From Acephala macrosclerotiorum (taxonomy: Eukaryota > Ascomycota > Leotiomycetes > Helotiales > Mollisiaceae): a DNA stretch of 64,000 bases. Positions 12,801-61,939 of this stretch are shown one piece after another. Position 1 is the first letter of the stretch, and each line of letters begins with the position of its first letter. A program made the position numbers and the translations under genes. Below the pieces are notes generated by a model, which was given only the letters and a program-made list of their open reading frames with translations, had not been told where the DNA came from and made no database searches. Location of the stretch: the NCBI GenBank assembly GCA_014904845.1, contig MU119286.1, positions 62,001-126,000 on the forward strand, given 5' to 3'.

Positions 12801-13125
12801 CCTCCTCGCTACGTCCGTTGCGGCTATGGATCCGGCGCAATTCCCAAACCCGGAAGTCCTGGATCCGCATCGTCCTTTCAAGGATTATATCCTCCTTGGT
12901 CATGGTCTTCATTACTGCTTTGGAGCTAGACTTGTTGGTGTTTCGCTTGCTGCGACGTTGAGGGAAGTTTTCAAACTGAAGAATATCAGGAGAGCGAGTG
13001 GGAGGAATGGATATTTCTCTGTTGTTGAGAAGCATTTCGCTGGAGTCAATATGAGGGTGTATCTTGATGCGAATGCTAAGGAGTCGCCTATCCCTACGAC
13101 GCTTACGCTTGAATATGATGAGTAA
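9827..13125 (+). CDS. Psi-factor-producing oxygenase family: fatty acid dioxygenase fused to cytochrome P450
   Basis: Exons 9827-10707, 10767-11333, 11379-13125; introns of 59 and 45 nt; 1064 aa, the usual size for Ppo/linoleate diol synthase proteins. The N-terminal heme peroxidase half has the distal histidine in VVIHECF (His194), then TSSYVDLSTLYG, and the catalytic tyrosine and proximal histidine in YHWH (364-367). The C-terminal half is a P450: an I-helix-like segment GAPVAGNITQQ, an ExxR-like FEGMR, and the heme-thiolate loop GHGLHYCFG with Cys996. Family enzymes first form a fatty acid hydroperoxide (8R or 10R) and then isomerise it in the P450 half, giving oxylipin signals that control sporulation. 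Because the thiolate cysteine is present, the P450 half may be active (PpoA/LDS-like); PpoC-type members lack it. Regiospecificity cannot be read from the sequence. Confidence 0.94.
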
Positions 13126-26029: not shown

Positions 26030-26170
26030 GCTGTCTCCATGCGATGTTAGCCTTTAAACTTTAAACAAGTATTGCCTGGAAGTAGTGTTTCTATGTTCTT
26101 AAAGCTGGTTCCCGTTCCTTCTGAGACAACAGATCTCGAAATTTTCCTCCTTTTAATCCTTGCCTATTTA

Positions 26171-26309
26171 TGTTAGACTTTCGAGTGGTTTTAGTGCTGA
26201 GTAAGCACTGCAATGGATATAATGTCCCCGCACCTAGCTAGATCTTTAAAACCTAAAAAATCAATCAACCAGACCATCAAGTCCATCGAATATATCACTC
26301 AAATTGACA
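26171..26309 (+). repeat. 5' LTR of the copia element
   Basis: 139 bp, begins TGTTAG and ends TTGACA. Preceded by the target duplication ATTTA. It differs from the 3' LTR at five positions only. Confidence 0.92.
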
Positions 26310-26321
26310 GGTTATGAGCCC
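26310..26321 (+). other. Primer-binding site for an internal initiator-tRNA-Met fragment
   Basis: GGTTATGAGCCC follows the 5' LTR directly. Its reverse complement, GGGCTCATAACC, is the anticodon arm of initiator tRNA-Met. Priming by the 5' half of that tRNA rather than its 3' end is known for Drosophila copia and some fungal copia elements. Confidence 0.85.
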
Positions 26322-29300
26322 GGAAGGTGCTCATTGAAACCGTCGTATCTTTTTACTCTAAAATATCAACCCTATTCGCTATGGCGACTCCAGCAGCTCC
26401 AATCGATGCTACAGCACTTACTTTTACAGCATCTCACTACGTCTGCAAGTGAAGTAGGATTGAAATTCTCACAAGGGATAACTATTCTCGATTCAAGAAC
26501 TTTTGTTTAGTCGCCTTTGCTAATATCTATGCTATAAAACTAGTTAATAGTGAAGAATCGAAACCGGTTTTTTTTGCGTCAATTGATCGGATTACGGCCT
26601 GGGAAAAGAAAGCTGCTAAAGTTATTCAAATCATCTCAAATAGCGTGGACGATAGATTATAAGACAAGATTTTTCTATTAGTTTTTTCCGAAGATATCAA
26701 GGGAATTTGAAACGAACTCAAGAAATACGATAAGATCGTTGATTTTATTTAAGTGTTTATTTAACGAACGAATTTTGGATAAAAGAAGTTCAAGACTTTT
26801 AAAAAAATCAGGGAATTCGTAGATCGTTTCAAATTCTACAAATTTCAGTTTGCAACGATCGAGAGACTAATTACCGATGATAAGATTTTAAATCGAATTA
26901 TAGTAACTATCTCTAAAAACAGTAATTACGAGAGTACGAAATATTATATTTTTTGTTTGTTAAAGGTCGAGTGTACACTCGATAAAACGATTACTATACT
27001 ACAAGTTTATGATAAGAGAGAGACTTTAGTAATTGCAAACTATACTCGTGGAAAAGGATAATAGCGTGGTCGTGGGCAATCTCGTGGTGATAGACAAATT
27101 AGAAACAAAAAACGAAAAACTAATCGCGGTAATCGCAATAATAATAATAATAGATACTGTAGAAAAAAAAAGAAGTAATCGTGAAAAATTTGGATTATCA
27201 ATATCTCGTTTTGTAAGATCTAAAGATCGTTGAGACGATAATAGCAATAACGAGAAATCTATTAATTATAATGAGTTTGATTCAAATCAATGTAGTTAGT
27301 ATATGCGCTATAAGCATTATGAGATTAAGTGTAAAACAAAACGGAAAAATAAAAAGACTAATAAAAAACAAGATTAGAAGAACTCTAAGTAAACAAAAAT
27401 TGTAACAATTGAATTTACTACTAGAGTAAGTATAGTGATTATAAACAAAATACAATAAAATCTTTTTTTTTTTATTTATTTTATCGTATCCATAGTACTT
27501 TTACTAGTAATAATAGTATTTACTCGATTGTTATTTAAGAATAAAACTGAGAAATATATCGAGTGTTTACATATAAACTCTGTTTATTACTCTCGATAAA
27601 TAAAAGTCTACACTAGTAAAAAACAATTTTTATTTTTACTATTCTTATCAACTCGAGTACTAATCGAACGAGTTTAAACTCTATTACTTGCTTTAGACTC
27701 TAATACCTCGAAATACTTCAATAGTGTGTAATTTGATTTCATACACTTAAAACGCTAGTAAATACCAAATAAAATTGTCACGACAAACGATACTATCGTA
27801 AACGCGATTAAATATTAAAATTAAGTTTAAATAATTTCTCAAAAAGAGTTGAAACTCAAAAAAGTCTAATATATATTAAGTTTTGAAATAGTGAGATTAA
27901 TTTCTATTTTACAATTTATAGAAAATAGAATATCAATCATATTTAAAAAAAGACGAGCAATTAGTATTACAAATGATAGAAATAAAAAAATAATATTTAC
28001 AGTTTTTAAGAATTTTAAAAATAATCTCTTTATATTGAATCAATATCAAAATGTCAATAATACTATTATATATTCGATAAACATTGTTTCGAATGTACCG
28101 ACGAGAATTCGATTATCAATAGAACTCTTCGAAGTAATAGATTTTAAGAAAATTCTGTGAAAATTTATATATCGACGTTTTAATTACATTAATTATAATA
28201 TACTTCGAAAACTGGTCGATGTTATAGACATAAAAATATCGAGATTCAAATTATATATTGAGTATAAAATATATAAAATTTGTACAACGAGTAAAATCAA
28301 AAAAACTTTTAAAAAAAAGACAAACAATAGAATTACTAGAAAAAAGAAAAAACTATATAGTAATATTTCTAGTAAATTGTTCAAGTTTTATAAAAAGAAT
28401 TAATATTTCTTTTTAATTACAAACGACGCAATACAATACTTTTGAATTAAACTTTTAAAAAATAAAAATGCGAGAGAAATCCAATTTTACATTCGTGAAA
28501 TCTGTAGAATTATTAAAAGAAATATAAGAGAGAATGTTATTTACTTTAGATGTAATAATAGATTGAGCGAGTTCGAAAAAGATTTCCAAAAATAGTTCAA
28601 AATATTGCTCAATTCTTTTAAATATGAGCTTTGTTTACTATATAAATACTTATTGAATAATGTTATTAAACGAGCAATACAAACAATAAATAATACTATC
28701 AAGTTTATGATCTACGAGATCAAGTTTCTATTGATTTTTTGAGATTATATTATAAAGTATACAATTTGAATCAAGAATAGAGTACCAATGAACGTATTTC
28801 TATGATTAATCTTGAAACTTAAATTAAAAAACCAAAAAATATATATTTTATTTGAAGTTTATATTAGAAAGAAATTAAATTTTCTAGTATTGTAAAAAAC
28901 TTTGATTACTTTTAAATACCAAATCAATATTAAAAAACTCAAAAACTAATCAAATAAATAAACTTTTAAAATCAAAGAAAAATATATTTTTATAGACATT
29001 ATTAAAAATAGTATTTACAAATTATTAAATTGTAGAATATTAAAAAAGACTTTTTCAATTAATATTAAATTTTATAAATACAAGTTTTTAGAACTCTTTA
29101 TTTCTTAAGAGTTTAAATATATTGTAATAAATTTACTTATTATTAATAATACAGTTTATAATCATATTATTATTAATATACTAATTAATTACTTTTTTAG
29201 TAATGAGATGATTAATAGTATTAAAACACGTGTTGATAAAAATAATAGTATTGAAATAAATACTTGTAAAAATAGAATTGAAATAAGTCTAAAATTAGTA

Positions 29301-29834
29301 ATCAAACAAAACTTTAGTGTCTAAAACTCTGATCAAACTTAAAAGTAACATTTATCTCAAATATCAAAAATCAATAATCGAATAATCAAAAGGACCAAGA
29401 ATCCTTATAATTCTTTTGTTAAAACGAAAAAAATAGTAAACAACGAATTGAACAATAAAAAAATACTTTTTTCTCAAACGATAAAATAACTAATAAAAGC
29501 TTTAAACGCTATTTATTTGAACGAAAAAAAATCATTTTCTCTAAATATACTTAGCGTTTTATTCGAATTTTTGACTATTAATAAAATCTTAAAAAAAAAC
29601 GTTTTTAATTGGATGAAAATAATCGTTATTAAACTCGAAATTTTTCAAAAAACAAATACTTATAAAATTATTACAAAAAAACTATCAAATAATAAAATGA
29701 TTATTTTAAACAAATAAATACTAAAAAAAAAATTCAATACTCGTAATAAACTAATTCGACGTAAAATTAAAATTGTTATTAGAAGATTCGAATAAATTTA
29801 TAATATTAATTACTTTAAAACGTTTATTTCTATT

Positions 29835-30179
29835 ATGAAATATACAACTCTACAAATACTTTTAATACTTACTATAAAATATAATCTAGAGATAAATTAT
29901 ATTGATATAAATTTAGCGTTTTTAAATCCTCTTTTTAAAAAGGAAATTTATATAAAAATCTTTAAATTTTTTTATAAATTTTACTTTGAACTCAAAAATA
30001 GAAATATTTACTTTCTATTCAAAAAATTACTCTATAAACTCAAATAAACTTTTCGAGTGTAATTCGATAAAATCAAATAATACTTCGAAAAATTGAAATT
30101 TATTGTATTTAAAACTGATTTTAATTTTTTTATAAAAAAAAAAATTTACATTTTCTTATTTGTCGACGATATACTAATC
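29835..30179 (+). pseudogene. Reverse transcriptase fossil of the copia element
   Basis: A 70-codon open stretch carries the copia RT block in which TTLQILL, NYIDINLAFLNP and KKEIYIKIF match the usual TLRxLLA, xxDVxxAFLxG and EEIYMxxP positions. After stops and frame changes the FVDDILI catalytic motif appears at 30159-30179. The replacement of usual Val, Ala, Gly and Arg by Ile, Asn and Lys is what a GC-to-AT drift produces. Confidence 0.8.
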
Positions 30180-31521
30180 ATTAGAAACAAAATAAATACG
30201 AACACTATTAAAACTAAGATCAAAAAGCGTTAAAAAAGTAAAAATCTCAGTTTTATTATCGTTTTCATAAAATTCTAAATCGAAAAAAATCGCGAGAATT
30301 ATATTCTTACAATCTATTAAAAAATGTATACAAATAAATTGTTACTACGACTCGATCTCGAATACTCGAATCAAACGAATCTATTATTCTCGCAAAATAC
30401 AATTCTATAAGAAAAAGAAAAAAAAAACTGATTAAACGAAAACGATCTTTATTTCTACAAACAAATCATTAGTACTACGATCTATTTAACTAATTGCACG
30501 AAACCAAATATCAATTATTACGTTAATCAGTTTATTAAATTTATATTCAACGCGTGTTTCGAATATTTACGTTTTGCGAAATAATTCTTTCGATATTTTA
30601 ATAAAACGAAAACGAGAGAAATTATTTACAAAAAAACGTCGATCAAAAGTTACAATATATTTTTCGATTCTACGTAAAAAATTGAAAACGATCGCAAATC
30701 GTTTTTAAAATAAATAGTAATACTAAAAAATAAAGTAATTTTATAGACAATATAAAAACAACGAAATACAATACAAAGCTCAATAAAAGTAGAGATTATA
30801 ATAGCAAATAAAATCGCAAAAAAAGCAATTTGATTAAAAAAACTATAATCGAAAATTATTAAAGAATTTCTTAAAAAACTTTTTACTTTATATTGCAATA
30901 ATTTTTTTGCAATCGATTTTAGTACGAATACGAAGTTCTCAAACAAATTTAAATATATTAAAATTCGATACTTCTATATAAAAAACGATATAATTACTAA
31001 AAACAAATTGAGAGTAAAATTAATTCTAAAGAACGATCAAATTGTAAACATTTTTACGAAATAATTATTTTACGATCAATTTACGATTTACAAAACTACA
31101 ATGAGTTTGAATGAAAATTGGTTTGATACAAAGAAAGTTGTAGTACTATTCACAAATTTCAAGGATTAGAATAACAGTAATAAAAAGACGAGTTGAGACA
31201 AAACGAAAACCCTTTTAAGCAGATCTGGAGCACTTTTTGACTGTGGAATAGGAGTTGGAAATGCTCTATTTAAAATCGAACTTCTATAAAAAGAATAGAT
31301 CCTTTTTAGTTTTCTATAAGCTTTTCTACGAAACAATTAAAACTAGCGCCACAAAGTTTAATGAGACTTTTTACGACGATTCGACGTTACAATTAATAAA
31401 AAATAAAAGACGATAAATCACAATAATAATTAGTGCAATAATCACGTGAAAACATTGATTATTTACATCACTTTGGACATTAAAATGGATATATCTCTAT
31501 AGTGCTTTTTAGCAGGGAGCG

Positions 31522-31660
31522 TATTAGACTTTCGAGTGGTTTTAGTACTAAGTAAGCACTGCAATGGATATAATGTCCCCGCACCTAGCTAGATCTTTAA
31601 AACCTAAAAAATCAATCAACCAGACTATTAAGTCCATCGAATATATCACTCAAATTGACA
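31522..31660 (+). repeat. 3' LTR of the copia element
   Basis: 139 bp, begins TATTAG and ends TTGACA, followed by ATTTA. Relative to the 5' LTR it has three G-to-A and two C-to-T changes and no change in the other direction, so the TG terminus has become TA. The purine tract AGCAGGGAGCG lies immediately before it. Confidence 0.92.
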
Positions 31661-32175
31661 ATTTAAACGAGTTTCGATGACTCCCGCTTTTTCTCAGCAT
31701 TCTTTACAACCGTAACACTTTTCTTCATGCATTGCAAACGAAGAATTGTTGAGATGGGTGGGTTTTCAGGGCAATTTTGAGAAAGAGTCTAGTTAAATAG
31801 CAGTCTTGAGACCGCGCCACCTAATATCATAAATTTTACTTTGCCCTATGTACCATGCCACGATCCACGAACCAATATCTTTATAAATTCGTGAATCATT
31901 GTAAAGTACATGACTCGAATGGAGGACATCGGATTGCTTGCTGTGACTGTGATTGGAATTTGTTTTACTATAGATGTATCATTTAGATCTCGGAAGGTAC
32001 AGGATTTTCCAATACCTCTAAAATATCACAGCAACTCGGCCACCGCCTTACTTTGTCAAGATCAATCTTCGTACACAGCTCTACTTCAAGACTAGTGCAG
32101 CTTGTACTCCAGACCGACGTCAACGTGCAGGACAGCATCTCTCAACCATCAACAACCTGGTCCAATAGGAAAACC
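31661..32175. other. Flank of the retrotransposon and promoter of the secreted protein gene
   Basis: Returns to normal base composition. No separate gene; the frame of the next gene is open from 32053 but lacks a convincing leader before the ATG at 32176. Confidence 0.5.
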
Positions 32176-32730
32176 ATGCAGCTCCAGAAATTCAACATGT
32201 TTCTCTCGATCATCTCCCTATTCATCTCGATTATGGTCGCAAGCCCCATCAATAAGACCCTATCCACGACTCAAGCACTGTCGAAATCACTCAACCACAC
32301 CGGTATTAGCCCCATCAAGCGTGAAGATTTCAGCGCAGTCGTCGTCGGCGACATGTGCACCTACCCAACATTCGGAAGTAGCATTCACCAAGGCAATCCC
32401 GACTGGTGTCTGTTCGCCTCTCTAACCACCTACCCCTACAAAGGCGGCAACCAAAACAAATACGACATCCACGTCTTCTACCTTTTTAGAAACAACTGCG
32501 AACTTATCGGATATGTTACTGGGGTATCGCAAGATGATGGCCAAAGATATCCGTTTGATTCAGAATTACCGATGGTTGTCGATGTGGAGACGAGTCAGTC
32601 GGCAGCGGGAGGAATTCATCCCCATATCTTTTATGGAAGTGGAGGAAATAATTTGCCGGAGTGTTGGATTCCTGTTAATGGAATAGTCCCGAATCAATTG
32701 GCTTGTAAGTTGTGGTTCCAGTGCAATTGA
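32176..32730 (+). CDS. Small secreted cysteine-containing protein, effector candidate
   Basis: Single exon, 184 aa. The ATG at 32176 has an AAACC context and opens a clear signal peptide (hydrophobic FLSIISLFISIMVA, cleavage near residue 22). A short pro-region ends in a dibasic KR at 48-49, a likely Kex2 site. The mature part would be about 135 residues with six cysteines (61, 78, 108, 163, 177, 183), enough for three disulfides, and is rich in Tyr, Gly and Asn. No known domain is recognised. It is bounded by the copia element on the left (its LTR ends 516 bp away) and an AT-rich island on the right, a setting in which fungal effector genes are often found. Its role is inferred from these general features only. 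Confidence 0.75.
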   Translation: MQLQKFNMFLSIISLFISIMVASPINKTLSTTQALSKSLNHTGISPIKREDFSAVVVGDMCTYPTFGSSIHQGNPDWCLFASLTTYPYKGGNQNKYDIHVFYLFRNNCELIGYVTGVSQDDGQRYPFDSELPMVVDVETSQSAAGGIHPHIFYGSGGNNLPECWIPVNGIVPNQLACKLWFQCN

Positions 32731-34852
32731 GTCATAAATGCTCGTGGAGAAGGGAGGAGGCTCATGCCGCGGTATGCGTATGACAGGACTTTAACATTTG
32801 AGTCCAAGAGCAAGGATGATGCTGTAGAAAGGTTGTCTTAAGCGTTCTATTAGAGGTTCTCAATGACCTTCTACCACTTCTATATGCAGCCTGATATTCT
32901 TCATTGTATTCTTCTCTCCTCTCGTTCATCTGCCAGGTCGGTGAAGTATTCTAGGCAAACTCCTCGTGCCATGACTCGAAATAGAATGAAAGAAATGAAA
33001 CTTTCAAAACGTTAACCATTGAATACAAAGTGAAATCAAGAATCGCAAACACGATTCCGGAAATTCCAGTTTAGTAGCGCGTGCAAACTTTGGAAAGTTT
33101 ATAAGTTGCTTTTAATTTGATATTTCTTGGTTTTTAATAAGTTTACGAATAAGTCTTTACCTTTGATCTTTGACTACTTTTTATACTTAAAATACCAATT
33201 TTTAATTTTTATTATAAATATTTAATTTTAAACATTTGGATTTTTTTATATAAAAATTAAAAAATAAATTTCAAATATATATATTAATTAAACTTTTTAA
33301 AAAATATATATATACTAATTTTTAATTTATTAAATAAAAAGTCAAATTATAAAATTTTATAAAAAAAATTTAATTATTTCGATTTTTGTTAAATATAAAT
33401 AAAAATTAATTAAATAATTTAAAAAGTTTTAAATAAAAAAAATTTGTCAATTTTATTTTAGTTTTAAAATGTATTATTTGTTAAATACTTTTTAATTTTA
33501 TTAATTATTCGTAAAAATAAAAAAAACTAAAAAAAAAAAACTAATATTTTTAATATAAAAAATGGTTCAAAGTAGAAAATGGTTTAAAGTCAAAGAATTC
33601 AATTTATATTGCCTTTCTATATAACGAAAAAATGCTACTTGCCGAACGGAGATTAAATAAGAATTATTCCACACTAATACAAGTCCAGTCCTCAAATTAA
33701 CTTGACATTCCACTCATTTTAATAACCTTATAAACAATATAAAGACAATTCATTATGGCATCCCACTCAACACAAAGGCCTCTACCACCCAGAAGCTGAT
33801 CTATGCACAATTGGGAGCTCTATTCATCTATGATCCCCATCTCAGCTCCCTGCGAAAAAGCATGAATCATCCGCGGGTTTCCTGGGACTGGGATAGCAAC
33901 AAGAATGGCCGTCCCTCCAAATAAATTCTTTCGAGCAGCATGTACTTTGCGGCAAGCTCTTCTATTGTTGTGTCCCAAAAGACAACAGGGTTGTAGGTGG
34001 TGGCGTCGCTTGAGGCTGACACTCGGGACCATGGAGATGAACTACTTTCCTACCCGAGCTCCTCTCTCTTTCTCCTCCTCCCCCCCCATTCTCTACTCGA
34101 TTCCTAGCGGACCTGAGGCTGTACCCAAACTATAATATCGAAGAAACATTGATTATAGTCATTTATAAACTTTTAGGGTTGATATTTGATAAATGAGCTT
34201 CGAAAGCAAGTCAAAAGCATAGCTCACCACTGCCCCGAGCTTCCTGAAGCGACTACCAACCCTTAGAGGAAGTGTCTCACACAAACCTGTGTGAATTAAA
34301 AGTGTCTTACAAGGGCTGAGCCCCTGTGATGATTCTCCGGCGGCTTCCGACGCCATCCCTTGGTTGAGACAGCTATTCTTCCAGGCTGTTGATAGTGCGT
34401 AGTGTGGTGGGGCTATATGCTTTCTCTTCAAAAATCCTTGTAAATAGCTAGTTTCGAGGGCAGTGCTGGTCACGTGTCTTCTAGTACATAAGGAGCTTTC
34501 GCTCACCATAGACTAATCAACAACCCTTTCTACTTCTACTCTGACTGATTGATTGATTGATTTACGGATTGCGGATTACTTCGAATGAGTCTAGCCCACT
34601 GGCTAAGACGAACTGACCTACGGTTGGGCCTTTTTGCTTTGTGCTCCATTGCCCTTCTACAGTAGTTAGAGGGCCTTTAGTTACACCCCGATAACTTTAC
34701 CGGAGGATCCCCGATAGCTGCTTCTGTAGGGCGTGACAGTAGAGCGGTACTAGGTATATGAATACAAATTTGCAATAAAAGATCTCAAGGACAGACTTAG
34801 ATGCCCTACCTGCGGTGGAGCACCTTACAACCATCGTAATCGATACCATATC
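32731..34852. other. Intergenic, AT-rich island and unassigned sequence
   Basis: Holds the AT island listed separately. At 33820-34510 there are minus-strand frames (for example one containing FGGTAILVAIPVPGNPRM) that look partly protein-like but that I cannot assign; they may be gene fragments. A TGAT microsatellite lies at about 34543-34562. Confidence 0.4.
33060..33620. repeat. AT-rich island, probably a RIP-degraded transposon relic
   Basis: Almost pure A/T for over 450 bp with stops in all frames. The two ends are roughly inverted copies: a segment near 33150-33195 with CTTTGACTACTTTTTATA resembles the reverse complement of about 33555-33600. This suggests a terminal-inverted-repeat element, but alignment is loose. 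Confidence 0.45.
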
Positions 34853-43050: not shown

Positions 43051-43209
43051 ATATCTATTTTACGCTTTTCCATGTATCTTTCAAAGACTATTTCAAATCC
43101 TCTAGCCAGCAGGGGCCGGGCCTTCTCGCTGCTTCGGGACTTTGAAATGTTGCGCTGTCAAGGTATAAGCAATAATTGCAAACATAGAACTCCAAAGAAT
43201 ATCCATTGA

Positions 43210-43790
43210 ATAAAAAGTAAATAGTTTTAAATGTAAGCTCGACCGAAAAAACTTGCAATTATAATAAATGTAAAAGTGCAAAGGACATAAATTATTATTA
43301 ATAATAATTAATTTATTGGAATAAATTTTAAAACAAATAAATTTAAAAATTAATATAAAAAATAAAAAAATAAAATTAAATAAATAAATTTATTTTTCAT
43401 TATTTTTACGAAATATTAAATATATAATATAAATTTAAATATATTATTAAAAATAATATATATATATATATATATAAATTAAAATTTTTAATTTTAATAA
43501 TATATTATTTAAAAAAAATTATTTAAATTATTAATTTTTTATTCGATTTTATTATTATTATTTTAATAAAATAATATTATTAATTCAAATTCAAACTAGT
43601 TCGACACGTAATTAGTTATAAATATATTAAAAAATTTAACATTTTATAATTGTAATTTTTTAAATTGTTTTTTATATAATTTATAAATATATAAAATAAA
43701 TTTCAATTTATTTTTTATTATTTTATAATTTTACGAACGATTAATTTAATTTATTAATTAAACGAAATAACTAACAATTGGGCGCCTTTT
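43210..43790. repeat. AT-rich island
   Basis: Nearly all A/T from about 43220 to 43760, including a TA run near 43459-43477, stops in all frames. Probably a fully RIP-degraded repeat; no structure left that identifies the family. It separates the relic gene from the P450 gene. Confidence 0.5.
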
Positions 43791-43916
43791 TTCACGAGAA
43801 TTATAATAGTCTGAAGGTGTGATATATTAAGGATAATGATCCAAAGAGCGGTGAGAATGAGGATATATACAGCATATCACGTGCACTCTAACAAGAACCA
43901 TTGCCCTTCTACAATA

Positions 43917-46094
43917 TCAATCCCATTGCTTTAGAAACTCTTCAGCCACCTTAGCCTCTTTTCTAATAACATCGATATGCTTCTGGCTCCTGGGCTTGAT
44001 ATTGATATTGAACGGCAGCGGTGAATGCAGAAGCCCAACACTATATGCTTCGGTATCCAACGGAATCTTCTTGCCTGTCTTTGGATCTGTTACCTCAGAG
44101 AATTCGAAGGCCCACAGTAGCTTCGCCACAATGCGCCATTGATTGCGCTCCGCAAGGTGGATTCCAGGGCACATTCGCCGCCCCGTACTGTAGCCGTAGT
44201 GATGTGCAAAGATCGTCAGCTGAAAGTTCAACGAAAGGAAGGGGGAAGGGAAGTCTCATCTCGCGCATTGTAGTCCGGCGAACCGGCGTAGTCATTGGCT
44301 AGTCTGGGGAATTCTATGAATCGGTCGGGATTGTAAGTCTCGGGGTCTTTATAGCCATTGAATTCTGAGTTATTAAGAGCCCTATGACACTCAATTAGAA
44401 AAGCTGATCTCCTTTTCTTTTCCTCATTACTACACACCAGATGGGAATAAAGATTGTTGAGTCTTTCGGGATGAGCATTCCTTCGTAGTAGTCATCTTGT
44501 TTAACCTATTTTGCATTAGTAATTACAGAACTTGAGAGGCGATTTGAGTTAGATTGCCTTATGGGGTAGCCCACTTGAGATCACTGGGCTAGGTATGGAT
44601 CAGTAACCATCCTGACATTGTATAAGTAGAGGCATCTTTACCGCCAACGCATGCCCTCCTTTACGATAGCGTTCACATAAGGAATATCATTGAAATCGGA
44701 CCAAGTAGGAGACCTTGAAAATCTTGTTAACAACTTCCAATGTCTGTTTGTGTAAGAGCGACTTGCCTTTCAGTTCCACAAACAGCGTCTATTTGATTTC
44801 TGGCCTTTACTTGGACCTCGGGGTATTTCGTGATGGCCAATATCATTGACAGCATAGACGAGGATGTGGTCTCCGCTCCCCCTTCACACATCTCACCCAG
44901 AAGCATGAAGAAAGCATGGCGAGTAAACGGCATCCCTTTCTCTTTGTATTCGTCAAGAAGTCGATCCGTGATGCAGGCTCGAGTGTCGCCAGCGGCACGC
45001 CTCTTTTCCACGCGTTCCAGGGCAGAACTCCATATCTTGTCCATTGCCTTTCCACTCTTAACAGCGCGACGTTTCCATGCAGCCATGGTTGTTGGGATAT
45101 ATTTCAAGAATCCGAACTCATCGACTGGAGGATTAGCTCCAGGCTCGAGAGCTTCCCCAAACTAATACGTGTTAGGATCAACTAGTCGGCATCTAAAATG
45201 AGAGAAGATCGATACTGACACGATCAAGCGCCTCATATACACACTGGAACAGATTAGCTCCGCATACAATTAGAGAGTAATTCATCTTACAGATCCCCAG
45301 AAAGAGTCGTAAGTGGCTCCTCGCTGTCCGAAAATCAAGATATTTGCTATTGATGCCGTAACGCGTCGGACGTGAGTGTAGAAGCTCTCAGGTGTTTCGA
45401 GAAAGTCGTTCATCAACATGACAATTCTGATACCGAATCAGTCAAAGGGCAACTTCTGGGGATGGAGTGTCTAATGAACTTACTCGGCTTCCTGAATATG
45501 AGCAGCCCTTTCCTCTATCATCTTAGGCTGCAATGGCTATTTTAGCCAACATTCATAGCGCAAAAAGGGAGAACTTACAGAAAAGTTGTGTGTCAAAACC
45601 TTACGTTTCTCTCTGGTAATGGCGTCGAGGGATGAGATGACCATGTGGTCACCTTGGGTCATCAAATTGCCAACGTAAGTGTGCGGGCGGTCTGAATAGA
45701 GAAGTCCTTTCTTATCCACTAATTCGTGGACGGCTTTCCGTGAACAAAGAACTATGACGTTCTTGGGACCAAATTTCAGAGAATATACACCCCCATACTC
45801 ATTTGCCCATTCGCGAAACCTTCAGTCGGGATTAGCAATTGTGGTGGCTTGTATGGACAGATACTTACTGTTTGTGGATACCTGTGAGGGGAATTTGCAA
45901 CAGATTGCCGAGAATGGGAATAGTAGGAGGACCCTTTGGCATCCGATGGTCGCGACTAATATTATTCAGTGAGAAAGTTGAAATGCGTGACCTTTTGTGG
46001 CGGTCTAAACTTACCTCCCGACTTTCAAAAGCCTATATATGGCCCATATGACCAATAAGCCAGCAATGGAGAGAGAAAACGTTGCCTTCTCCAT
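43917..46094 (-). CDS. Cytochrome P450 monooxygenase with twelve exons and non-canonical introns
   Basis: Exons: 46094-46015, 45955-45869, 45819-45579, 45527-45484, 45426-45291, 45243-45220, 45161-44767, 44713-44642, 44588-44558, 44505-44438, 44381-44260, 44203-43917; 528 aa, a normal P450 length. Residues 4-20 are a hydrophobic anchor, so the enzyme should face the cytosol on the ER. Then PKGPPTIPILGNLLQ (proline-rich hinge), I-helix GGAETT (298-303), ExxR (355-358, KEGMR), PETYNPDRF and the heme loop YSTGRRMCPG with Cys445. The family looks like OrdA-type fungal P450s, which oxidise secondary metabolites. Introns 7 and 9 need GC-AG borders; intron 11 needs AT-AC. It shares a divergent promoter with the SnoaL-like gene. 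If intron 11 is not spliced, the protein would be cut before the heme loop. Confidence 0.88.
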
Positions 46095-46672
46095 GACGTC
46101 CTTGGCGACGAAAATTCTTCGACAACTCCAGGCGCGGACTGATCACTGATTGTTGACAAACTTAAGTTCTGGAAATTTGGAATTTGCAACAAGTCCGTCG
46201 TCTGCCTGCTACAATTGTAGTCTCAATCTCACCAGCCAATTTATCATTTCTGACGACAGCAGCGTTGAATACAGTACGAGCATACGAAAGGCAAATTTCT
46301 GTCTTCCTTCCGAGGCTGAGTACAACAAGCCGAAGTTGCTCCGCAGGTGTATCGATGTCATTGGCTACTGGGGGGCGGATGAACTGCTCGCACATATTGG
46401 AAAATCCGATTGAGCGTATCGGACCAACAACGGATCAAAAGGTGCCGAGGTAGAGCTTTCGCGCGAGGCGGATCATCTATAGCATTGCGAGGCAGGAAAT
46501 CATGTTAAGCATGTGCACCACTGAAGAGCTTCGGATAGGCATAGCCATACATATAAGATGAGACATAGCGATGTCTGCAGCTGCATCTTGTAACTAAGTT
46601 TTCGAGGCGATCCAGCTCAAGTCAAAACCACCATCAAAAACGAGCAACTAAGAACATACTAGGACCACAAGA
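46095..46672. promoter_or_regulatory. Divergent promoter between the P450 and SnoaL-like genes
   Basis: 578 bp separate the two start codons. An everted CCG-N11-CGG element (CCG at 46406-46408, CGG at 46420-46422) is of the kind bound by Zn2Cys6 dimers. Two further CGGATC motifs follow at about 46431 and 46479. No gene is seen inside. Confidence 0.5.
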
Positions 46673-47391
46673 ATGGCTTACTTCAACGAGGTAATACGAA
46701 GCTGTGATCTGACTGTGAATGCTCACTAACGAAGCATAGAAAACATTGACTACAGTTCAAGACTTGTGGAAGAATTTGAGCATGCCAGTGAATGATGTGA
46801 GTTCAGAACAGCGATACAAGCCAGAAATCGTTCAGTTGACCACAACCTTTAGCTTCACAAACCTGAATTACTCAAGGAAGAAGAAGAAATCCTCGAATTC
46901 TACATTGGGTGGGCCAAGTGCATCAACACCGACTTCCGCGCAGGAGACGTTGATGCGGCCAAGAAGTTTTATGACATGCCGCAAGTCATTACCTGCAAGT
47001 AGACCTGTTAATTGGTATGTATTAGAAAACAGGCTAAACAAATCTGTGTGTAGTTGATCTTTTCGGCATGACACCGCGCGGCCCCAAGACTTTCGAAGAA
47101 CATTTGGAGCAGACGTTCCCATACTTTGCCAATGCCGAAATCGATTTCAAAGATCTCGAAGTCACAGCCACATCACCGACGTCAGGATTTTCGACCATGA
47201 TACAAAGACTGCGTGGAAAGTCAGCTGACGATAAACCTTTCGAAATGGTATATCGAATTTCAGCCAACTTGACCAAGAAAGACGGTGCTTGGAAGTGGGT
47301 GCACGAGCATGTATCATTCCCTGTGAATATGGCTACTAAGGAAGCCGATTTCACTTCGTCTATCGATCCTAAGAAGAGCTTTTCATTTTGA
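46673..47391 (+). CDS. SnoaL-like (NTF2-fold) protein
   Basis: Exons 46673-46690, 46740-46796, 46877-46994 and 47054-47391; 176 aa. After the short first exon the protein reads EEEEILEFYIGWAKCINTDFRAGD, then MPQVITFDLFGMTPRGPKTFEEHLEQTFPYFANAEIDFKDLEV and finally WKWVHEHVSFPV: the cone-shaped NTF2/SnoaL fold with helices first and the curved sheet last. SnoaL-like proteins in fungal clusters act as cyclases, isomerases, dehydratases or hydrolases on polyketide-like substrates. Introns 1 and 2 are GT-AG with CTAAC-type or CTGAA branch points. Intron 3 (46995-47053) has GCAAGT...TGTAG borders: reading on meets a TAG at once, while the GC-AG join restores the TFDLFGMTPRG block. Next to the P450 and facing away from it. 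Confidence 0.8.
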
Positions 47392-47928
47392 TAGGACATC
47401 TGGACATTTCCGCACAGGTATAGCTGCGTATCTGGGTCGTTATGAAGTCGAGGCAATCGCTGGGGCTTTGATGGCATTAGTATCAATATTACTCGCGGCC
47501 GTTAGCTCAAGGGTCTGGGTCTGTTAAGAATGCATGAAAAAGAATCCACGAGAGTAATTCGCAAATGAGAGTGACCCCGGAACTAAACCTAATGCAGAGA
47601 GCGCTAGTGTCTTGTCCAGCTCCCGTGATCTAGATACGGGTAGAGATATGCGGTGTTGGAGGTGTTTCTGTACACGTTGCAATGAGGCAAGCTAATGAGA
47701 AATTGATCTGGGTTAGGCTTTGGAGAGTTTAATCTGCTAGATTAAAGAATATACACAGGATGCTGTGGAGTTACAAGTTTGGAAAATCGCATCCAATGAT
47801 CACGTGTAGGACTTCACACGTTTCACTGAATCTGGGAAGTCTTCGGGCGGACCATTTTTCACACCTGCGGGCTTATTTCGGGGAATTAAGTACATTGCAA
47901 AGCTGTGCAAGACACTCCCCACCTGTGC
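47392..47928. other. Space between convergent cluster genes
   Basis: About 540 bp of 3' flanking sequence. No gene recognised. A single ACCCCGG lies near 47575. Confidence 0.5.
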
Positions 47929-48710
47929 TCAAACAGAACCCCGCAGCAGCTCCAACCCCACAATATGCCACGGGACAACAAACTCGGCATAATAATTGAA
48001 AAGAGCATCGATACATGCCTTGAACTCTGGCTTCTTCTCGAACTTCTCGTGATGAGCCTATCAGCCATGTTAATCACCAGAAGCCTTTCTGAACACCGAG
48101 GGGGTGGATTTACCCCAACAGATTTCCAATTGATTAAGAGAAGTTGATCCTGGGGGTTCTCAATCTGAGAACTGATAAAATATCCGTCACAGCCAGGGTC
48201 CTTATTCAAAATCGGAGCCACCACTTTCTCAAACTGCTCATAATATCCAGCAACTCCACCTTCCACAACTTTTGTCAAGGCGACTTCAATAGCTGGAGAT
48301 GATAGAATGCTTTTCAACCGTGACATGTCATCGAAGATAGCTAAGGATCCAACGTGTGCATGTTGTGCCCACTTTATCTTGCGGCCATTTAGGGCTGGCT
48401 GGATCTTGGTGTTGAAGTCTTTGTATGCCGCGCTGGTGAAAAATGCATGACTTGATTCGAGGTTATCCCAAAGCACGAGGTAGACTAAAGTGTATCTATC
48501 TTCGAACTTGCGACCCCGCCAGGCAGCTTTGAGACCGTTTGCACTAGACGTGAAACCTTCGATTCAGCTACAATTCATAAAATTATTTAAGGATCGAACC
48601 TACCTGAGCAGTATTTCAACCGAAGCCGCCAAGTCTCCGTATATCTCCTCACCCGTAAGAGTTGGCCTATGTGGAACGAAAATGAGTTGAATCGTTTGGG
48701 TGGAAGGCAT
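47929..48710 (-). CDS. Tandem dimeric alpha/beta-barrel (ABM-like) protein
   Basis: Exons 48710-48604, 48543-48114, 48057-47929; introns of 60 and 56 nt (GTAGGT and GTAAAT donors); 221 aa. Two similar halves can be seen: the first with TIQLIFVPH, KAAWRGRKFEDRYTLVYLVLWDNLESSHAFFTSAAYKDF, the second with VAPILNKDPGCDGYFISSQIENPQDQLLLINWKSVGAHHEKFEKKPEFKAC. In each a 'W-x-S/N-x-x-x-x-H-x-x-F' stretch precedes a helix, the hallmark of antibiotic-biosynthesis-monooxygenase/EthD-type barrels. A single chain with two halves can form the barrel alone. Such proteins act as cofactor-free oxygenases, decarboxylases or cyclases in aromatic polyketide pathways; the exact reaction is not readable. Start-to-start with the SDR gene across 239 bp. 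Confidence 0.78.
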
Positions 48711-50462: not shown

Positions 50463-53116
50463 ATGACTTCCGACATAGACACATCCTCCTTGACACAGGT
50501 CGAAAAAGAAGTTAGCAGCTCACGATCTCTTCTCGCCTGCGAATCATGCCGAAGGTTCGTCTTCCCCTTACAGTCGTATCTACTCCTCTGACAACCTGCC
50601 ATCGATATTAGGCGCAAGATCAAGTGGTAAGTGCCAACCTTTTGAGTATTTGGCGAGTCAGATAAGCAAGCACACCATCTAATCGCCGCTTGAACTAGCG
50701 ATCGGGAATTACCTCGCTGCTCCATATGTATTAAATCAGACCAAATTTGTACATACCGTGATGGACCTATGAAGCCTGGACCTAAGATAGGTGCGTTACC
50801 TCGCGATAGGCAAGAACGGAAACGGTCCTGAAGACTATTAGGTGTCTCCCAGCGCAGTCGAAAGCGACAGCGAACAGATGGAACTCAGACCAAGAGTAGT
50901 GCTGGCGTGGCTTATCAATATTTGAGGCCGGAGGAGCATGGTGTTCTGAGCTCAGCCGCTGCAGTTCCAGACGAAGCTGCAGGCGCTGTCGGAAATGACC
51001 GCGATGGAAGCATTGGAGAAGACGATACCCTGACCTTACCAAACCAATTACCGCCAATTGCGGACTTTGGAGGTGTCCCTGACTATGCCCCGCTCTCTCC
51101 AGAAACAACAGTTTCGGCCCATACGCCAAGGTCCGGCATCAGCATTCACAACCTCTCTTTTATCATGCACCCCTCGCATGAGGCGACTTCGGATACCCAA
51201 AGGATAGAGGATCGCGAGCATCCTTCCGAGAGAGCCACAGACACTTCATCTGATAGCGAGCCAGTCTTAATTGCACGCGCATGCTATGCGCTGAATATTT
51301 CGCCAGATACATTGTATAAATTGTAAGTTTTTCCACATTTAATGACCTGCTACCCCTGACATTCTCAAGGATCGACCTATATTTCGATAAGATGACCTCC
51401 TTTTCGCTATTCCGCCAACCGTACTTTCGAGCCAAGATCCGAGCAATATCTTCATCTAAACAGCTCAATGCACTTCTAGCTGCAATGTTGTCGTTTTCTT
51501 CGCGTTTCGACACAGAGGATGAATACCAGAGCAAACAATCGATTCCGCCCGGCTCACCCCTGTCCATCACGCCATCTGACCATTTCCTCGATCTTGCACT
51601 GCAATTCATTGATAAAGCGATCCAGGAGTGTGGAGATGAAGCACCATCCTTGTGCCTCTTGCAAGCCATGACGCTTGCGACATTTCAGCAATTGATCAAA
51701 GGAGTATACGGGAGAGCTTGGAGGTCACTGGGAACTTGTGTTCGAGTGGCTCATGAGCTTTATCTTCATGTCATCGATTCGGAAAATATCGATGAAAGTA
51801 CGCCAATTGACACTAACAAATGGTGTTTTGACGAGGAGAAACGTCGAGTGTGGTGGGCTATTTGGGAGATGGATACTTTTGCAAGCACTATTCGACGTTG
51901 CTCTACCGCTATAGATTGGTCGCAAACTGAGACGAATCTTCCCGTAGATGATGAGTATTGGTTCCGAGGCGAATTCCAGCGTAGTTGTTTCCTGACCCCA
52001 ACAATAATGGAAAGGTGGAAGACAATACAGTGTAGCGGAAATCAGTCGCCAAAAGCATGGTTCATTGTTGTCAACTCTTTGATGAGAGAAGCTCAGCTCC
52101 TTTCCAGCCCCCGAGGCGTCTTCCGATCATCCGCTGAGAGATCAAAGTCTTGGGCCAACAAGGCTTCCTACAAAATGAAATGTAAAGAGACCTCTCAGAA
52201 CCTAGCTGTCATCGAAAACGCTCTGCGCTGTTTCCAACTTGCTCTCCCCGCCAGTTTGAAATACAATTCCGAATATCTGAATTTCGCTTCAAACAATGCG
52301 ACTTTTGGCGAAATACAACGAGACAGCTCGGTTTACAGCATTCACGTCATGATCCAGCTCACGAAATTCATGATATACCACCATGGAGTCTTCGGCGGTG
52401 GTCGACGCAAGCACTGCCATTCAGAGTCGGCTGACGATATCACTCCACCGAATGGACCTCAGTCATTAGGAATCTATCCTTCATTCCTTACAGTCACTCC
52501 GGACAGTGAAGCCTTGAATCGGTACTCTGATGCGGCTGATAAAGTCCTTCTGGTTGTGAACAACTGTGCAGAAGATCATATCCAATATACCAACCCGTTT
52601 ATCGCGAGTACCATCTGGCTTGCGGCGGCTGTTCAGCTTGTCTACAAGGTCTTTTGCCCGACAGGAACGAAGAGAATTCTGGTAGACTCGAACTTCGAGG
52701 TTTTGCGCCTGAACCACAAACGGTACGTGGAATACTGGAAGATGTCCACGTCGCTCCAACAGAATCTCGACTACCTAGCAGAGCAACTAAAGCGTCTTTG
52801 CTCAGAGCGGGTGAATAGTCAAGGTCCCGGGCTTGATGACCTTGAGATCAGGGCCGACTTGGGGTCCGTCTTGTGTAGTCAAGTTGGGTCCGCGAACAAC
52901 ACATGGCCGCTTGACAACCAGGATTTAGGTTTTTATGACAACTCTGTTTGCGCCACACAAGCTTACGACAACTCTCTTTTCAATGGATCGGTGATACCAA
53001 CGGGAAATGGAGACCTGGGAGGCGATGGGAACAGTCTACCTAGTGATCCTTTAGAATTTCTCGAAACCCTCGCATTTGGGCTGAATTTTAGAATGGACGA
53101 CTTTTCAGGGTGTTGA
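50463..53116 (+). CDS. Zn2Cys6 transcription factor with fungal-specific domain
   Basis: Exons 50463-50554, 50612-50626, 50699-50790, 50842-51322, 51370-53116; 808 aa. Exon 2 is only 15 nt and sits inside the zinc cluster. The joined motif is C-x2-C-x6-C-x6-C-x2-C-x6-C with cysteines 26, 29, 36, 43, 46 and 53, followed by a basic stretch RSRKRQR. The Fungal_trans region (about 230-520) includes LLAAMLSFSSRF, AMTLATFQQLIKGVYGRAWRSLGTCVRVAHELYLH and KRRVWWAIWEMDTFAS, the typical central motif. The C-terminus is acidic and Asn/Gly-rich, likely the activation region. Such factors often control the cluster in which they lie, here the P450, SnoaL-like, ABM-like and SDR genes; that link is inferred from position. 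Confidence 0.92.
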
Positions 53117-55231
53117 ACCGGACTCCTTTCTTGATAAAACGGAGAAAGGTCATGTGCCAAAGGGTCGTCACGTTATGTATACTTACCTCTTCTTACATAT
53201 TTATCCCTTATAGAGATGGATTACCTCGCAAGGGGCGATCCGAATTGCGCTGAATCGACGTGACCTAACGTCAATCCAGTATTCTAATCCTCTCTGAGTT
53301 CTTTCCATACAGTCGCCCCCATGCACCAAACGCCACGGACACAATTACGCCAGTATATCCAGGGAATATAGGAGGTCAGTTGGTACAAAGCTTGAACCGC
53401 ACGCCCAGAGCTCCAGGAAATGTAACGCCTGAAGAGTTCACCACCCCGGGAAATGGTCCGGCTGATATACCTTACGCATGCTAAGACCTAAGTGACTTCT
53501 ATCACATACTATCTTCCCGCCTTGGTCAAACAGGCCTCAGGAACCTTAGGCCTCTCTGGTGGAAGGTTCAGTAAAGGTTCATAAGCGTGGATTGTGTGGA
53601 TTCGCAACATTGATGCAACGAGACAAGCATTTTGGACTGGACTCGAAAGTCTCGGCTTCAGCCGACTGTGGGCAGTGAACGATGGTCCCAAAGATTAAAC
53701 TCGGCTAAGCAGCTAAAATTAAGCATTTCAGCATGATACCCGGCTTTGTGAATCATCCCCTTTAAATAAGGATCCTGCGTGAACTTTCGGACCCCTGGCT
53801 CATATTCACCTACCTAGGAGCCAGCATCCTGGGTTTTCGGTGCTGATACAAAATAAATAACCTCGCACGTTTCAGACGGAACAAATCCGAGAAAGAGGCG
53901 GCAAGGAGGAATTGTGTGGTCCTCTTCAAGTGCGGAAGTGGAAGGGACGACTAGAAATTTCTTTACCTGATGGTGTGACTCACACGCAGATTGTCTCCAT
54001 AAATCAACTGCATCCCCACAAAAAGAGGTGGTATTGATTTCGATGGTCAGGATTAGTAAGGGTTGTTTCTATTAAAAACTCTACTAAGCGGCTCAAAACG
54101 CGTAATTACAAAGCATGTAAAAAAGCGCTTGAAAAAAACGCGATTTATAATAAAAAATATTTTATATATAATTATTTCGAATTAAATATTAAAATAAAAT
54201 TTAATAAATTATATTAATTAATCCGTTTAATATAAAAAATATATAAAATCGAATATTATTAATTAAATAAATTAATAAAATATAATATTAATTTTTATTA
54301 AATTGCGCGTTTATATCGTAATACGAATTATTTTTAAAATATATAATTTTTATTATTAATTAAATAAAAAAATAAAATTATAAAATTATAATTTGTTTTT
54401 TTATTTATAATTTAATTTATAAAATATTATTTTTAAATTGAAAAAAAGTTTTTATTTATATTATTTAATTTTTTTGTTAAAATATTATAATTTCTTTATA
54501 ATTATAATAAATTATTTATAAAATTTAAAATTAATTTATTAAAAAGTTTTTAAAAAAATAAAAATCTAAAATACGAAGGTTATAAAAGCGGTATATTAAA
54601 AGAAGTAGCCCAAAGTAAAGGGTTTCGCTTTAACCTTTCTTTGTATATAACTAAGGCTAGTTTGTAAAAATGAGTCCGCGGCCAGACGTTCGGCATAATT
54701 TGGTTAGTAGCGAGTCCATGCAGGGTACACAATAACGCATACCAGATTCGCGGACAATTGAATGGACCAACTTCGGTACACTACTACTTCCGCCAATCTA
54801 CACGTGGGGTGGTCACATATTACTCGTTAGGTATTTGGCCAACAGGCTTTCCGTGTTGTCCCGCTACCTTAATCGGCAAGGTAATCGAAGCCCCACCTCC
54901 CCCCAGCAACGAAGTTCATGAATGCGGGGTCAAGCGGGCTAATATGCCGCCTTACAAGATTTCGAGCCCGTTATACGGAAAAGACTAAAGTTTCGTAATC
55001 CGGACGAGCTTTGCTACGGGATAATTAATTGACCATGCACAAAGTTTCTCCGAGAATCTATCTTAACTTTATTCCTAACATAAATCTTGCTGCCGATAAC
55101 ATGCCTCGTAGTTTTAGCGATCTAGCTCTGTCATCGTCTTTGAGCAAACCAAAGCTTGATTATCTCACATCTTTTGCGTGTCTTCCTCAATCTTGCTGTT
55201 CCAATACATTTGCACTACGTCAGACGTCATC
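53117..55231. other. Intergenic region, 2.1 kb, with an AT island
   Basis: Apart from the AT island at 54070-54650 there are only short frames without motifs. Splits the cluster between the regulator and the second SDR. Confidence 0.5.
54070..54650. repeat. AT-rich island, likely RIP-degraded repeat
   Basis: About 500 bp of nearly pure A/T with a few CG pairs at the left end. The right edge (GAAGTAGCCCAAAGTAAAGGG near 54600) loosely resembles the right edge of the island at 33060-33620, so both may derive from one family. Alignment by eye is weak. Confidence 0.4.
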
Positions 55232-56534
55232 ATGGGGCTCAATCTACCAGGGTAGGTGTTTCACCTGATTTATACTGCGTTGGTAGTGGGCAAGATACTA
55301 ACTTGTCTTATCAACGATAGCGTTGCTTTTGTAACTGGCGCAGGTGGCAGCATTGGTCGGGCCGTCGTCCTTCAATTCGCCCGTGATGGGTGTTCTAAAA
55401 TAATTGGTCTCGACATCTCACAAGCCAGCCTGAGCGAGACAACATCCGCCCTCCATACTCTTTTCCCACAAGTCGAATTCTTAGAAATCATCGCCAACAT
55501 GGCTGATGAGGAGCAAGTCAAATCCGCTTTCGAAAGGGCCGTGACAAAGTTTGGGCGTATTGATTATGCCGTAAACAATGCTGCTGTTTCGTCTCCTTTC
55601 ACGGGCACGGCAGATTCAGACTTGGCACAGCTGAGGAGGAGTGTTTCAATTAATTTAGAGGGGACGTGGCTTTGTGAGCGTGAGGAGCTAAGATTAATGA
55701 TGAAACAAGAGCTGTTGTCAACACCAGAGGCTCTGTAGGTGTCGACTCGCTCATATTCTGTCCTAAGTTTTCGGAGCCAGGGGATTCTAATCGATCCTCA
55801 AGATGGAGACTAACGGCACTCTAGGGCTGGTCGAGGGAAATCTAGGGGATCAATTATCAATATCGATTCTATTCTAGGCCTCTTAGCGATGCCCGGCAAC
55901 GGCATCTATACGATCACAAAGCACGGTTCGTATATGAGCGTGCAAGTCTAATGTAAACTGTAACTGATACTGCAGTGGAATAATAGCTCTTCTGGGAATG
56001 GTCAAGACAGATGCATTGGATTATGCAAAGCAAGGGATCCGAGTAAATGCAATTTGTCCCGGGTAAGCGTTCATACACGACTTCCGTATAGATTTCTATT
56101 CTTATGAAGTACATTACCTTTGTACAAAACAAATTCAGTGCAATTGCTCACTATTTGTCTGCTAGGTTCGTCGACACGCCTCTGGTCACTGCAGAAATCA
56201 GAAATCTCGTAAGCTCTTTCAGTTTTAACCCATCAAATACGCAGATCGACACAGCTTTATATCGCTATCTCAAGCCCTGCTTTATTCCTTGCAGAGTAGC
56301 CTTTGCTGACTGAACGGCGCAGCTGAGGCCAAGTATTGATAAGACTCCAATGGGCCGCCTCGCCAATGCTCAGGAGATTGCAGACTCTGTGGTCTTTCTG
56401 GCAAGTGATCGTGCGAGTTACATCACGGGCAGTTCTTTGGTGGTGAGCCGCACCCCTTTTTCTCAATAAGAAGTGATATGATTGTTACTAACAATATGAT
56501 TTACAAGATTGATGGTGGATACACCGCACAATAA
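55232..56534 (+). CDS. Second short-chain dehydrogenase/reductase, seven exons
   Basis: Exons 55232-55251, 55321-55734, 55825-55929, 55976-56062, 56166-56208, 56323-56442, 56508-56534; all introns GT-AG, 46-114 nt; 271 aa. TGAGGSIG (cofactor loop, from Thr12), LDIS at the end of strand 2, NNAAVSS, catalytic Ser160 in NIDSILG, Tyr173 and Lys177 in YTITK, then ICPGFVDTPLV and ITGSSLVIDGGYTAQ at the C-terminus. The Asp in GLDIS suggests NAD(H) preference. All key residues are present, and every exon join restores a conserved SDR block, so the gene looks functional despite its setting between AT islands. It may belong to the cluster but lies 2.1 kb from the regulator. Confidence 0.87.
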
Positions 56535-60154: not shown

Positions 60155-61939
60155 ATGCGGCAGCAGACGGTCGCCGTTATTGGCGCAGGTGAGGTTCCAG
60201 ATCGCTGCGGCGGAGATTCTTGATGCTGACACCACATGACCAGGCTCCAGCGGGCTGTCCATGCTAAAGACCCTTCGCGAAGATGGTTTCAGGACCACAT
60301 GTTACGAGCGAAGGAGTCAAGTCGGTGGCTTGTGGGCATATACAGATGATAAATCGATGACCACCGCGCTTCCTAGTGAGCATACCCGTTGCGCACGAGA
60401 TTCGTGGTTCTGGTTAACGAGAGTTAGGTACCACAGCAAACATCAGCAAATATACCTGCGGCATGTCGGACTTTCCAATGCCAGACAGTACAGCCCCTCA
60501 AATCTCACTTTGGAGTCCACTTTACTTACGAAGATCTAGAGTATCCTCATTACTTGTCTCAAGAACAATTTTGGGAGTATATCGAGTCGTACGCGAAGCA
60601 TTTTGATATGCACAAGGACATTGTGTTCAATGCATCTGTGAAGGCGGTGTCTAGAAATAAAGACGACAGCAAGTGGCGGCTACACGCTATCATAGATGGA
60701 GAGTCTCGAGTTGAAGAGTACGACAAGGTAGCATTCTGCCACGGATACCAAACGAAAGCGAACATGCCAGTCTTTGAAGGCGTCGAGAAATTTGAGGGGT
60801 CAATTATCCATACTCAAGAGTTCAGAATGTGAGTGATTGCGAACCAAAACAGCCAGTTCCGTACTCATCACTTCAGGTCGGACGAATTTAAAGGGAGGAA
60901 AGTCGTCGTGGTCGGTGTATCGAGCACCGCTTCCGATGTCATTGCTGCGCTTCTACCGGTCGCATCAAAGCTCTATATGTCTCACCGACGAGGAGCACTT
61001 ATTCTCCCCAAATGGCGGAAAGGCTTCCCTCCAGATTTGTTGTCCAGCTGGCGTCGGCGCCAGATCGCCGCTTTCCTACAACGGACCTTTCCGAATTTCT
61101 CAAGATGGCTATTGGATCGGCTCGTGGGAATCATGATGAAGCAACTATATGGAGAAGTTGATCCAGCCTGGGGACTACTACCACCTCCATCTCTCAGCCT
61201 GTCGCCCCGTGCGTTGTCTGATCACGTTATTCCGGCACTGAAAGATGGGTCCTTGACCTCATTACCAGGAATTAAGTGCTTTACAGGGCCTAAATCGATC
61301 GAGTTCACAGACGGAACCGTCGTCGACAACATTGACGTTGTCATATGCGCGACAGGATACCGGGCCGACTTCAGTGCTGCTCCATTCTTAGAGAAGAGTC
61401 GACCAGCAAACTATGGTGGTCCAGATTTCGTTAGGCTGTGGATGAATCTCTTCCCGCCCAAATATGCTGACTCGATAGTCATGCTTTGCTATTCTGCGTT
61501 CGGGAAGAACAATGGCTTCTCTTTCTCCGACGTGACTTCAATGGCAGTGAGTAACGTGTGGCGTGGTGTCCACCCCACGCCAACGATGGAGGAAATGGAA
61601 AAGCACGTCGACAGTCACCAAGAATGGGTTGCGGCAAGATGGCGCTTGGACCACGATATAGACACATCGATGGTGAAGACTTGGGAATATCAGTCTTTCC
61701 TACATAAAGCTGCTGGTACAGGTATGGAGATTCTCGGTTGGGGTTGGAAGGGCTGGAAGTTCTGGTTCCAGGACCCGAAGATGTCGTACATGATGAATAA
61801 TGGAGTGGAAACCGCGCATGCGTTTCGGTATTTTGAGACGGGAAAGAGGAAGGCCTGGCCAGGAGCAAGAGATGCTATAATACACATGAATGAGTTGGTC
61901 AAGATGTTTCCCATCAAAGAGGAGAAGAAGGCACAATAA
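60155..61939 (+). CDS. Flavin-containing monooxygenase (FMO-like)
   Basis: Exons 60155-60188, 60244-60375, 60428-60487, 60534-60828, 60877-61939; introns of 46-55 nt, all GT-AG; 527 aa. FAD site GAGSSG at residues 10-15, then YERRSQVGGLWAY, MSDFPMPD, and the FMO signature FEGSIIHTQEF (F-x-G-x3-H-x3-F). The second dinucleotide motif reads VVVVGVSSTASD, where a serine replaces the second glycine of GxGxSA; NADPH binding may be altered. VDVVICATGY follows, the usual ATG motif before the last domain. Such enzymes use NADPH and O2 to oxygenate N- or S-atoms or ketones. The cluster TF is 7 kb away; membership is unproven. Confidence 0.88.

Follow-up and report, generated by a model that had tools for sequence, protein, structure and literature searches.

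A putative U2-type AT-AC intron at the heme-binding region of an Acephala macrosclerotiorum P450 gene and its signature in homologues from several ascomycete classes

A cytochrome P450 gene in the 64,000-nucleotide stretch of Acephala macrosclerotiorum DNA analyzed here (the window), which belongs to a genome assembly of 69.7 Mb in 778 contigs, very probably contains a real U2-type spliceosomal intron at 44259 to 44204 that begins with A and ends with C (A1/C(-1)) and that, judging from sequence comparison, is old and conserved in Ascomycota.

Structure of the P450 gene and borders of intron 11

The gene was modeled with 11 introns of 47 to 59 nt each (eight GT-AG, two GC-AG, and one AT-AC). 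The features of the gene, all on the reverse strand, are as follows.

43917..46094, reverse strand, cytochrome P450 gene: 12 exons, 528 amino acids without an internal stop, Pfam PF00067 (E value, 2.7e-65)
45243-45220, reverse strand, exon 6, a 24-nt exon; residues nearby are absent from as many as 15 of 120 homologue models
44714..44766, reverse strand, intron 7, GC-AG (GCAAGT...CAAG)
44506..44557, reverse strand, intron 9, GC-AG (GCAATC...ATAG)
44260..44381, reverse strand, exon 11, with ...DYNARD at its end and only the first base of that Asp codon
44204..44259, reverse strand, intron 11, putative AT-AC ends, 56 nt, phase 1, within the Asp codon of ARD/HYGY
44254..44259, reverse strand, putative 5' splice site ATGAGA; TGAG fits TRAG at positions 2 to 5 of a U2-type donor
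44215..44219, reverse strand, branch-site-like CTGAC (GCTGAC), whose A lies 12 nt ahead of the final base of the intron
44204..44207, reverse strand, putative 3' splice site GCAC, read from the sequence
43917..44203, reverse strand, exon 12, running to the stop codon: two bases that complete the Asp codon, followed by HYGYSTGRRMCPG (heme loop, including the Cys ligand)

Three of the 11 introns are not GT-AG. The top-scoring homologue among the matches listed (P0001 from Claussenomyces, Leotiomycetes) was 70% identical to the gene product, and a partial protein (P0028) reached 79% identity across 74% of the query.

Across intron 11 the letters run GCG CGA G, then ATGAGACTT at the start of the intron and CTGACGATCTTTGCAC at its end, then AT CAC TAC GGC TAC. 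Excision of 44259 to 44204 gives exactly ARDHYGYSTGRRMCPG, also written ARDHYGYSTGRR, with the frame open over 528 amino acids, and reading through the segment leads to a frameshift and a stop ahead of the heme Cys. The borders, the ATGAGA, GCAC, and CTGAC motifs, and the exact restoration of the product were thus as described in the original prediction, in an open 528-amino-acid frame matching PF00067. The eleven other joins that it had counted are ten in the 11-intron model, and two of these (introns 7 and 9) are GC-AG.

End pairs were tried with donors from 44330 to 44226, introns of ≥30 nt, and acceptors down to about 44152. This yielded 3,009 open-frame pairs of any type at the junction, including 13 AT-AC and 5 GC-AG pairs, and none of the 3,009 was GT-AG. 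The earlier claim that no in-frame GT or GC donor and AG acceptor exist therefore stood for GT-AG and had to be narrowed for GC-AG, of which all five pairs keep the frame and destroy the conserved block or lose conserved residues, none with a GCAAG-like donor. ARDHYGY was restored by 44259 to 44204 only, an excision that can be written in three registers (AT-AC, TG-CA, and GA-AT) with identical mRNA; to our knowledge, the TG-CA and GA-AT registers are members of no class of intron. Given the exact product, AT-AC in one of three registers is expected in about 1% of random sequences (an estimate, 3/256), and the comparison with homologues described below is stronger than this chance figure. A nested intron (stwintron) was dropped as a candidate, since 56 nt is too short.

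The use of other ends in this fungus, such as the GC-AG pair 44266 to 44220 with the product DYNLTIFAHHYGY, is extremely unlikely. That pair keeps the frame, and two other GC-AG introns lie in the same gene, but its donor (GCGCGA) is unlike GCAAGT, and its use would remove the conserved Arg-Asp and add LTIFA, a translation of the branch site, whereas 99 of the 176 listed homologues have the plain join. It is also highly improbable that the true ends are GT-AG and obscured by an assembly error, or that a dying gene is no longer spliced here. The sequence comes from a single assembly, and the gene adjoins a very AT-rich segment at 43200 to 43800 (GC content, 4 to 14%); against this, 528 codons are open, and the same odd signature occurs at the same codon in homologues of many other species. 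A pseudogene reading was likewise dropped, the frame being intact.

Islands of AT-rich DNA occur beside ordinary genes in the window (26001 to 34000, GC content of 18 to 36%; 43200 to 43800, 4 to 14%; 54001 to 56000, 37%), and these may be a product of ascomycete repeat-induced mutation, which they resemble. The window also holds a second P450 match (frame 11503 to 13122, forward strand; PF00067, 5.8e-12) and a small gene opposite the P450 gene (about 46670 to 47400, forward strand; frame pieces include MAYFNE and EILEFYIGWAKCINTDFRAGDVDAAKKFYDMPQVIT). Further matches are as follows.

47886-48476, reverse strand, ABM monooxygenase match (weak, 2.6e-05)
51392-53116, forward strand, fungal transcription factor match
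60833-61939, forward strand, flavin monooxygenase match

Together, the P450s and the ABM monooxygenase, transcription factor, and flavin monooxygenase frames may form a secondary-metabolite cluster.

Splice signals and spliceosome type

The sequence context of intron 11 is U2-type and not U12-type. AT and AC ends, a TRAG donor context, and a branch site at the usual distance are those of a U2-type AT-AC intron, and the other ten introns of the gene contain branch candidates with the A 10 to 16 nt before the end under a looser motif. These signals, with TGAG in the donor and the A of CTGAC at 12 nt, agree with the U2-type A1/C(-1) reading that had originally been proposed. In that reading, the major spliceosome would recognize intron 11 by its donor context (TRAG), its branch site (CTRAC), and the distance from branch to end, and in the second step of splicing the A1/C(-1) pair would stand in for the usual G1/G(-1). 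Compensation between A1 and C(-1) is known from work in yeast and mammals.

That intron 11 is instead a U12-type AT-AC intron removed by the minor spliceosome has very little probability, even though AT-AC ends are chiefly associated with the U12 class. The donor matched the U12 donor ATATCCTT (RTATCCTT) at 3 of 8 positions, and the best match to the U12 branch motif TTCCTTAAC in the last 40 nt of the intron was 6 of 9, so neither qualifies as a U12 signal. Genes for U6 and U2 RNAs were found in the genome (four each), and genes for U12, U6atac, U4atac, and U11 RNAs were not found in a search that was weak, control genomes being likewise silent. A survey of over 3,000 genomes (PMC10639083) reports, in the part of its text drawn on here, that convincing minor introns were not found in Ascomycota. 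Because the donor and branch site depart from the U12 motifs, the minor snRNAs were not found in this weak search, and that part of the survey points the same way, removal by the U2 route is the best reading.

Signature of the intron in homologous protein models

Three protein searches (best 120 of 362, of 1,315, and of 743 matches) gave 176 different proteins. No relative was found in one scan of viral contigs and one of bacterial and archaeal genome contigs. At the RD/HYGY junction, 99 of the 176 listed homologues had the plain join, 54 went astray directly after Arg-Asp, and 23 were without the stretch, so that 77 of 176 were mis-modeled at the site of intron 11. Among the best 120 of the first search, 40 insertions of ≥3 amino acids were found over the whole protein, with 14 at the intron 11 junction and 0 to 4 at each of the other ten intron sites; deletion depth was 14/120 at the junction, 15/120 at exon 6, and 0 to 8 near other intron sites. 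The 24-nt exon 6 is likely a second annotation trap. All of this evidence consists of protein models, with splice-site letters read back from mis-modeled proteins rather than from DNA, and the homologues are related to one another, so the counts are not independent. A plain join in a protein fits a lost intron, a GT-AG intron, and a correctly modeled AT-AC intron alike.

Among proteins known solely from lgn/jgi assemblies, 15 of 15 had the plain join (chance of 1e-4 given 99/176), an indirect sign that the intron may be spliced with these borders. Thirteen of these lie on contigs of <3.4 kb with an intron-free reading frame, as expected of transcripts, and these short contigs are probably transcripts.

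The donor can be read from the residue that follows Arg-Asp in the altered models. When a phase-1 G/GTAAGT is read through, Gly follows Arg, whereas G/ATAAGT gives Asp-Lys and G/ATGAGT gives Asp-Glu; a gene finder that takes the GT inside ATAAGT as the donor leaves AA plus one base (Lys or Asn) or GA plus one base (Asp or Glu). In the 54 altered models, the residue was Lys in 43, Asn in 6, Glu in 4, and Asp in 1, so that 54 of 54 codons begin with AA or GA; these four residues together make up 21.6% of all residues in the homologue set. The Gly expected from a GT donor after Arg was found in 0 of the 54. From the proteins, the first base of the homologue donor is fixed as A, the second as T or C, the third as R, and the fourth as A; the T in second place is visible in the window alone. 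RAGT was allowed by eight of the nine homologue donors tested, the exception being P0044, which does not allow ATRAGT.

At the other end, in-frame reading of an intron that ends in AC before AT-CAC produces x-His-His-Tyr, where the codon for x ends in A, and an extra His thus implies a final C in the intron. Thirty-two altered models rejoin ahead of the heme loop, and 30 of them contain the extra His (His being 3.2% of residues in the homologue set); the residue preceding this His is in every case one whose codon can end in A, namely, E, L, P, A, I, S, K, or V (background, 73%). Two of the 32 do not fit an AC end (P0124, with Asp in place of His, and P0137, with Asn). Three frameshifted read-throughs (P0157, P0167, and P0171), read manually, carry CAY, CAY, and TAY, respectively, directly ahead of the first bases of the loop, which fixes an A before the last base and a C or T as the last base.

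Seven homologue models apparently read the whole intron in frame (48 to 72 nt). In three of them the branch site is visible as Leu-Thr, in LTFAEH-HYAYG (P0020), LTTPAH-HYGYG (P0051), and LTSILH-HYGYG (P0061), and intron 11 of the window would read LTIFAH-HYGY, which matches this pattern. CTRAC with its A 12 to 14 nt before the end was allowed in 7 of 10 read-through pieces versus 6.7% of 20,000 control windows (binomial P = 6e-7, a guide figure only, because the pieces are related) and was ruled out in the other three (P0021, P0044, and P0171).

An AT-AC intron that is private to the window, with homologues mis-modeled from other causes (a short last join or cryptic sites near a GT-AG intron), is very unlikely. 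Gene models are indeed prone to mistakes where exons and introns are small, as the deletion depth at exon 6 (15/120) illustrates, and P0124 and P0137 are unfit for an AC end. This explanation nevertheless predicts the Gly after Arg that appeared in 0 of 54 models, and the acceptor (30/32) and branch-site (7/10) readings agree with AT-AC ends.

Distribution, origin, and significance of the AT-AC intron

Judged by organism name, the 54 altered models belong to Eurotiomycetes (26), Sordariomycetes (16), Dothideomycetes (7), Leotiomycetes (4), and Lipomycetes (1, Myxozyma); classes were looked up for Claussenomyces, Myxozyma, Pseudovirgaria, Exophiala, and Clonostachys, and the other organisms were placed as they are generally assigned. 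The AT-AC signature is thus present in four Pezizomycotina classes and one Lipomycete; the Lipomycete case, which is one model, may represent transfer. A tree was built with FastTree alone from 171 rows (170 of the 176 proteins, 6 under 400 amino acids being omitted, plus the window gene), with the junction columns and the own-genome paralogues left out and the root not known. The signature label occurred on both sides of the tree midpoint (13 of 53 and 42 of 118 rows, window gene counted). The label versus all other rows required at least 33 changes, of which 26 were forced by starred branches, or 25 with the 23 "lost" rows set aside. The original prediction had implied a change private to this gene, an implication that did not survive once this codon was found to carry the signature in homologues from four Pezizomycotina classes and a Lipomycete, and on both sides of the tree.

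Fourteen paralogous stretches were found in the genome itself, six of them with a readable heme motif, and all six run through the site with no intron, so that precise loss or original absence of the intron does exist. In one stretch, read in part (L036), an intron lies elsewhere in the heme region, and in the other seven a single match spans the site, which suggests that there is no intron there. A second copy of the junction was sought in the genome with a strict pattern (AC plus heme loop), which matched the P450 gene alone. A relaxed pattern added one place, on contig C40 (letters HFYFRQGR), which was rejected as not a heme loop.

It is difficult to believe that such unusual ends were acquired many times independently at one and the same base. 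A single ancient origin followed by losses, with correctly modeled or intron-free genes among the plain rows, would be simpler, and a matched change, if GT-AG was the starting state, most likely took place a single time in the distant past. On this reading, the intron would already have had AT-AC ends in an ancestor of the P450 subfamily that predates the divergence of the main Pezizomycotina classes, and would since have been kept or lost and seldom rebuilt as GT-AG. Rebuilding would be rare because a change at one end alone is expected to block splicing, and read-through shifts the frame and runs into a stop codon ahead of the heme Cys. A stronger version is possible though unlikely: a single origin before the parting of Pezizomycotina and Lipomycetes, with AT-AC ends maintained by selection and not simply because reversion is difficult, and slow or condition-dependent splicing acting as an on/off switch for the heme loop throughout the subfamily.

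Intron 11 joins a known kind, the U2-type AT-AC introns, and is remarkable for its depth in fungi and its effect on public gene models. Introns of this kind occur, for example, in vertebrate sodium channel genes. Intron 11 resembles them in its AT-AC ends, its ordinary U2-type donor context and branch site, and a presumed working A1/C(-1) pair; unlike the sodium channel case, it lies in an ascomycete enzyme gene, has 56 nt, and is traced over several fungal classes. With U12-type AT-AC introns it shares the terminal dinucleotides but not the long RTATCCTT donor or the TTCCTTAAC branch motif.

The U2-type AT-AC class appears in the literature as AT-AC class II in part of the text of PMC7072748, which also gives AT-AC ends as 0.019% of annotated fungal introns. 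In Trichoderma longibrachiatum, 69 of 14,305 junctions from RNA sequencing were AT-AC, according to a section of PMC4324775. These sources, as far as the portions used here extend, likewise record AT-AC junctions in fungi, but as genome-wide counts; the main text of PMC4324775 does not contain the word P450, and those portions of PMC7072748 trace no single intron across species. For the fungal P450 gene atE, an excerpt of PMC5794859 gives introns based on cDNA, the fourth and last at 1191 to 1243, which was rejected as an equivalent of intron 11 because, by arithmetic, it lies too early in the gene. At the level of titles and abstract openings, no literature was found that describes an AT-AC intron as conserved in a P450 gene of fungi.

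Gene finders often misread the AT-AC intron and could allow ATRAGT...AC at this P450 site. With 77 of 176 listed models altered at the heme loop or immediately ahead of it, enzymes of this family may be scored as truncated or nonfunctional through a fault of annotation. Ascomycetes appear to use the major spliceosome alone, and an intron with A1/C(-1) ends maintained over the depth of Pezizomycotina would offer a natural experiment on how the first and last bases of an intron pair, as well as on how a splice-site pair stays off the GT-AG peak.
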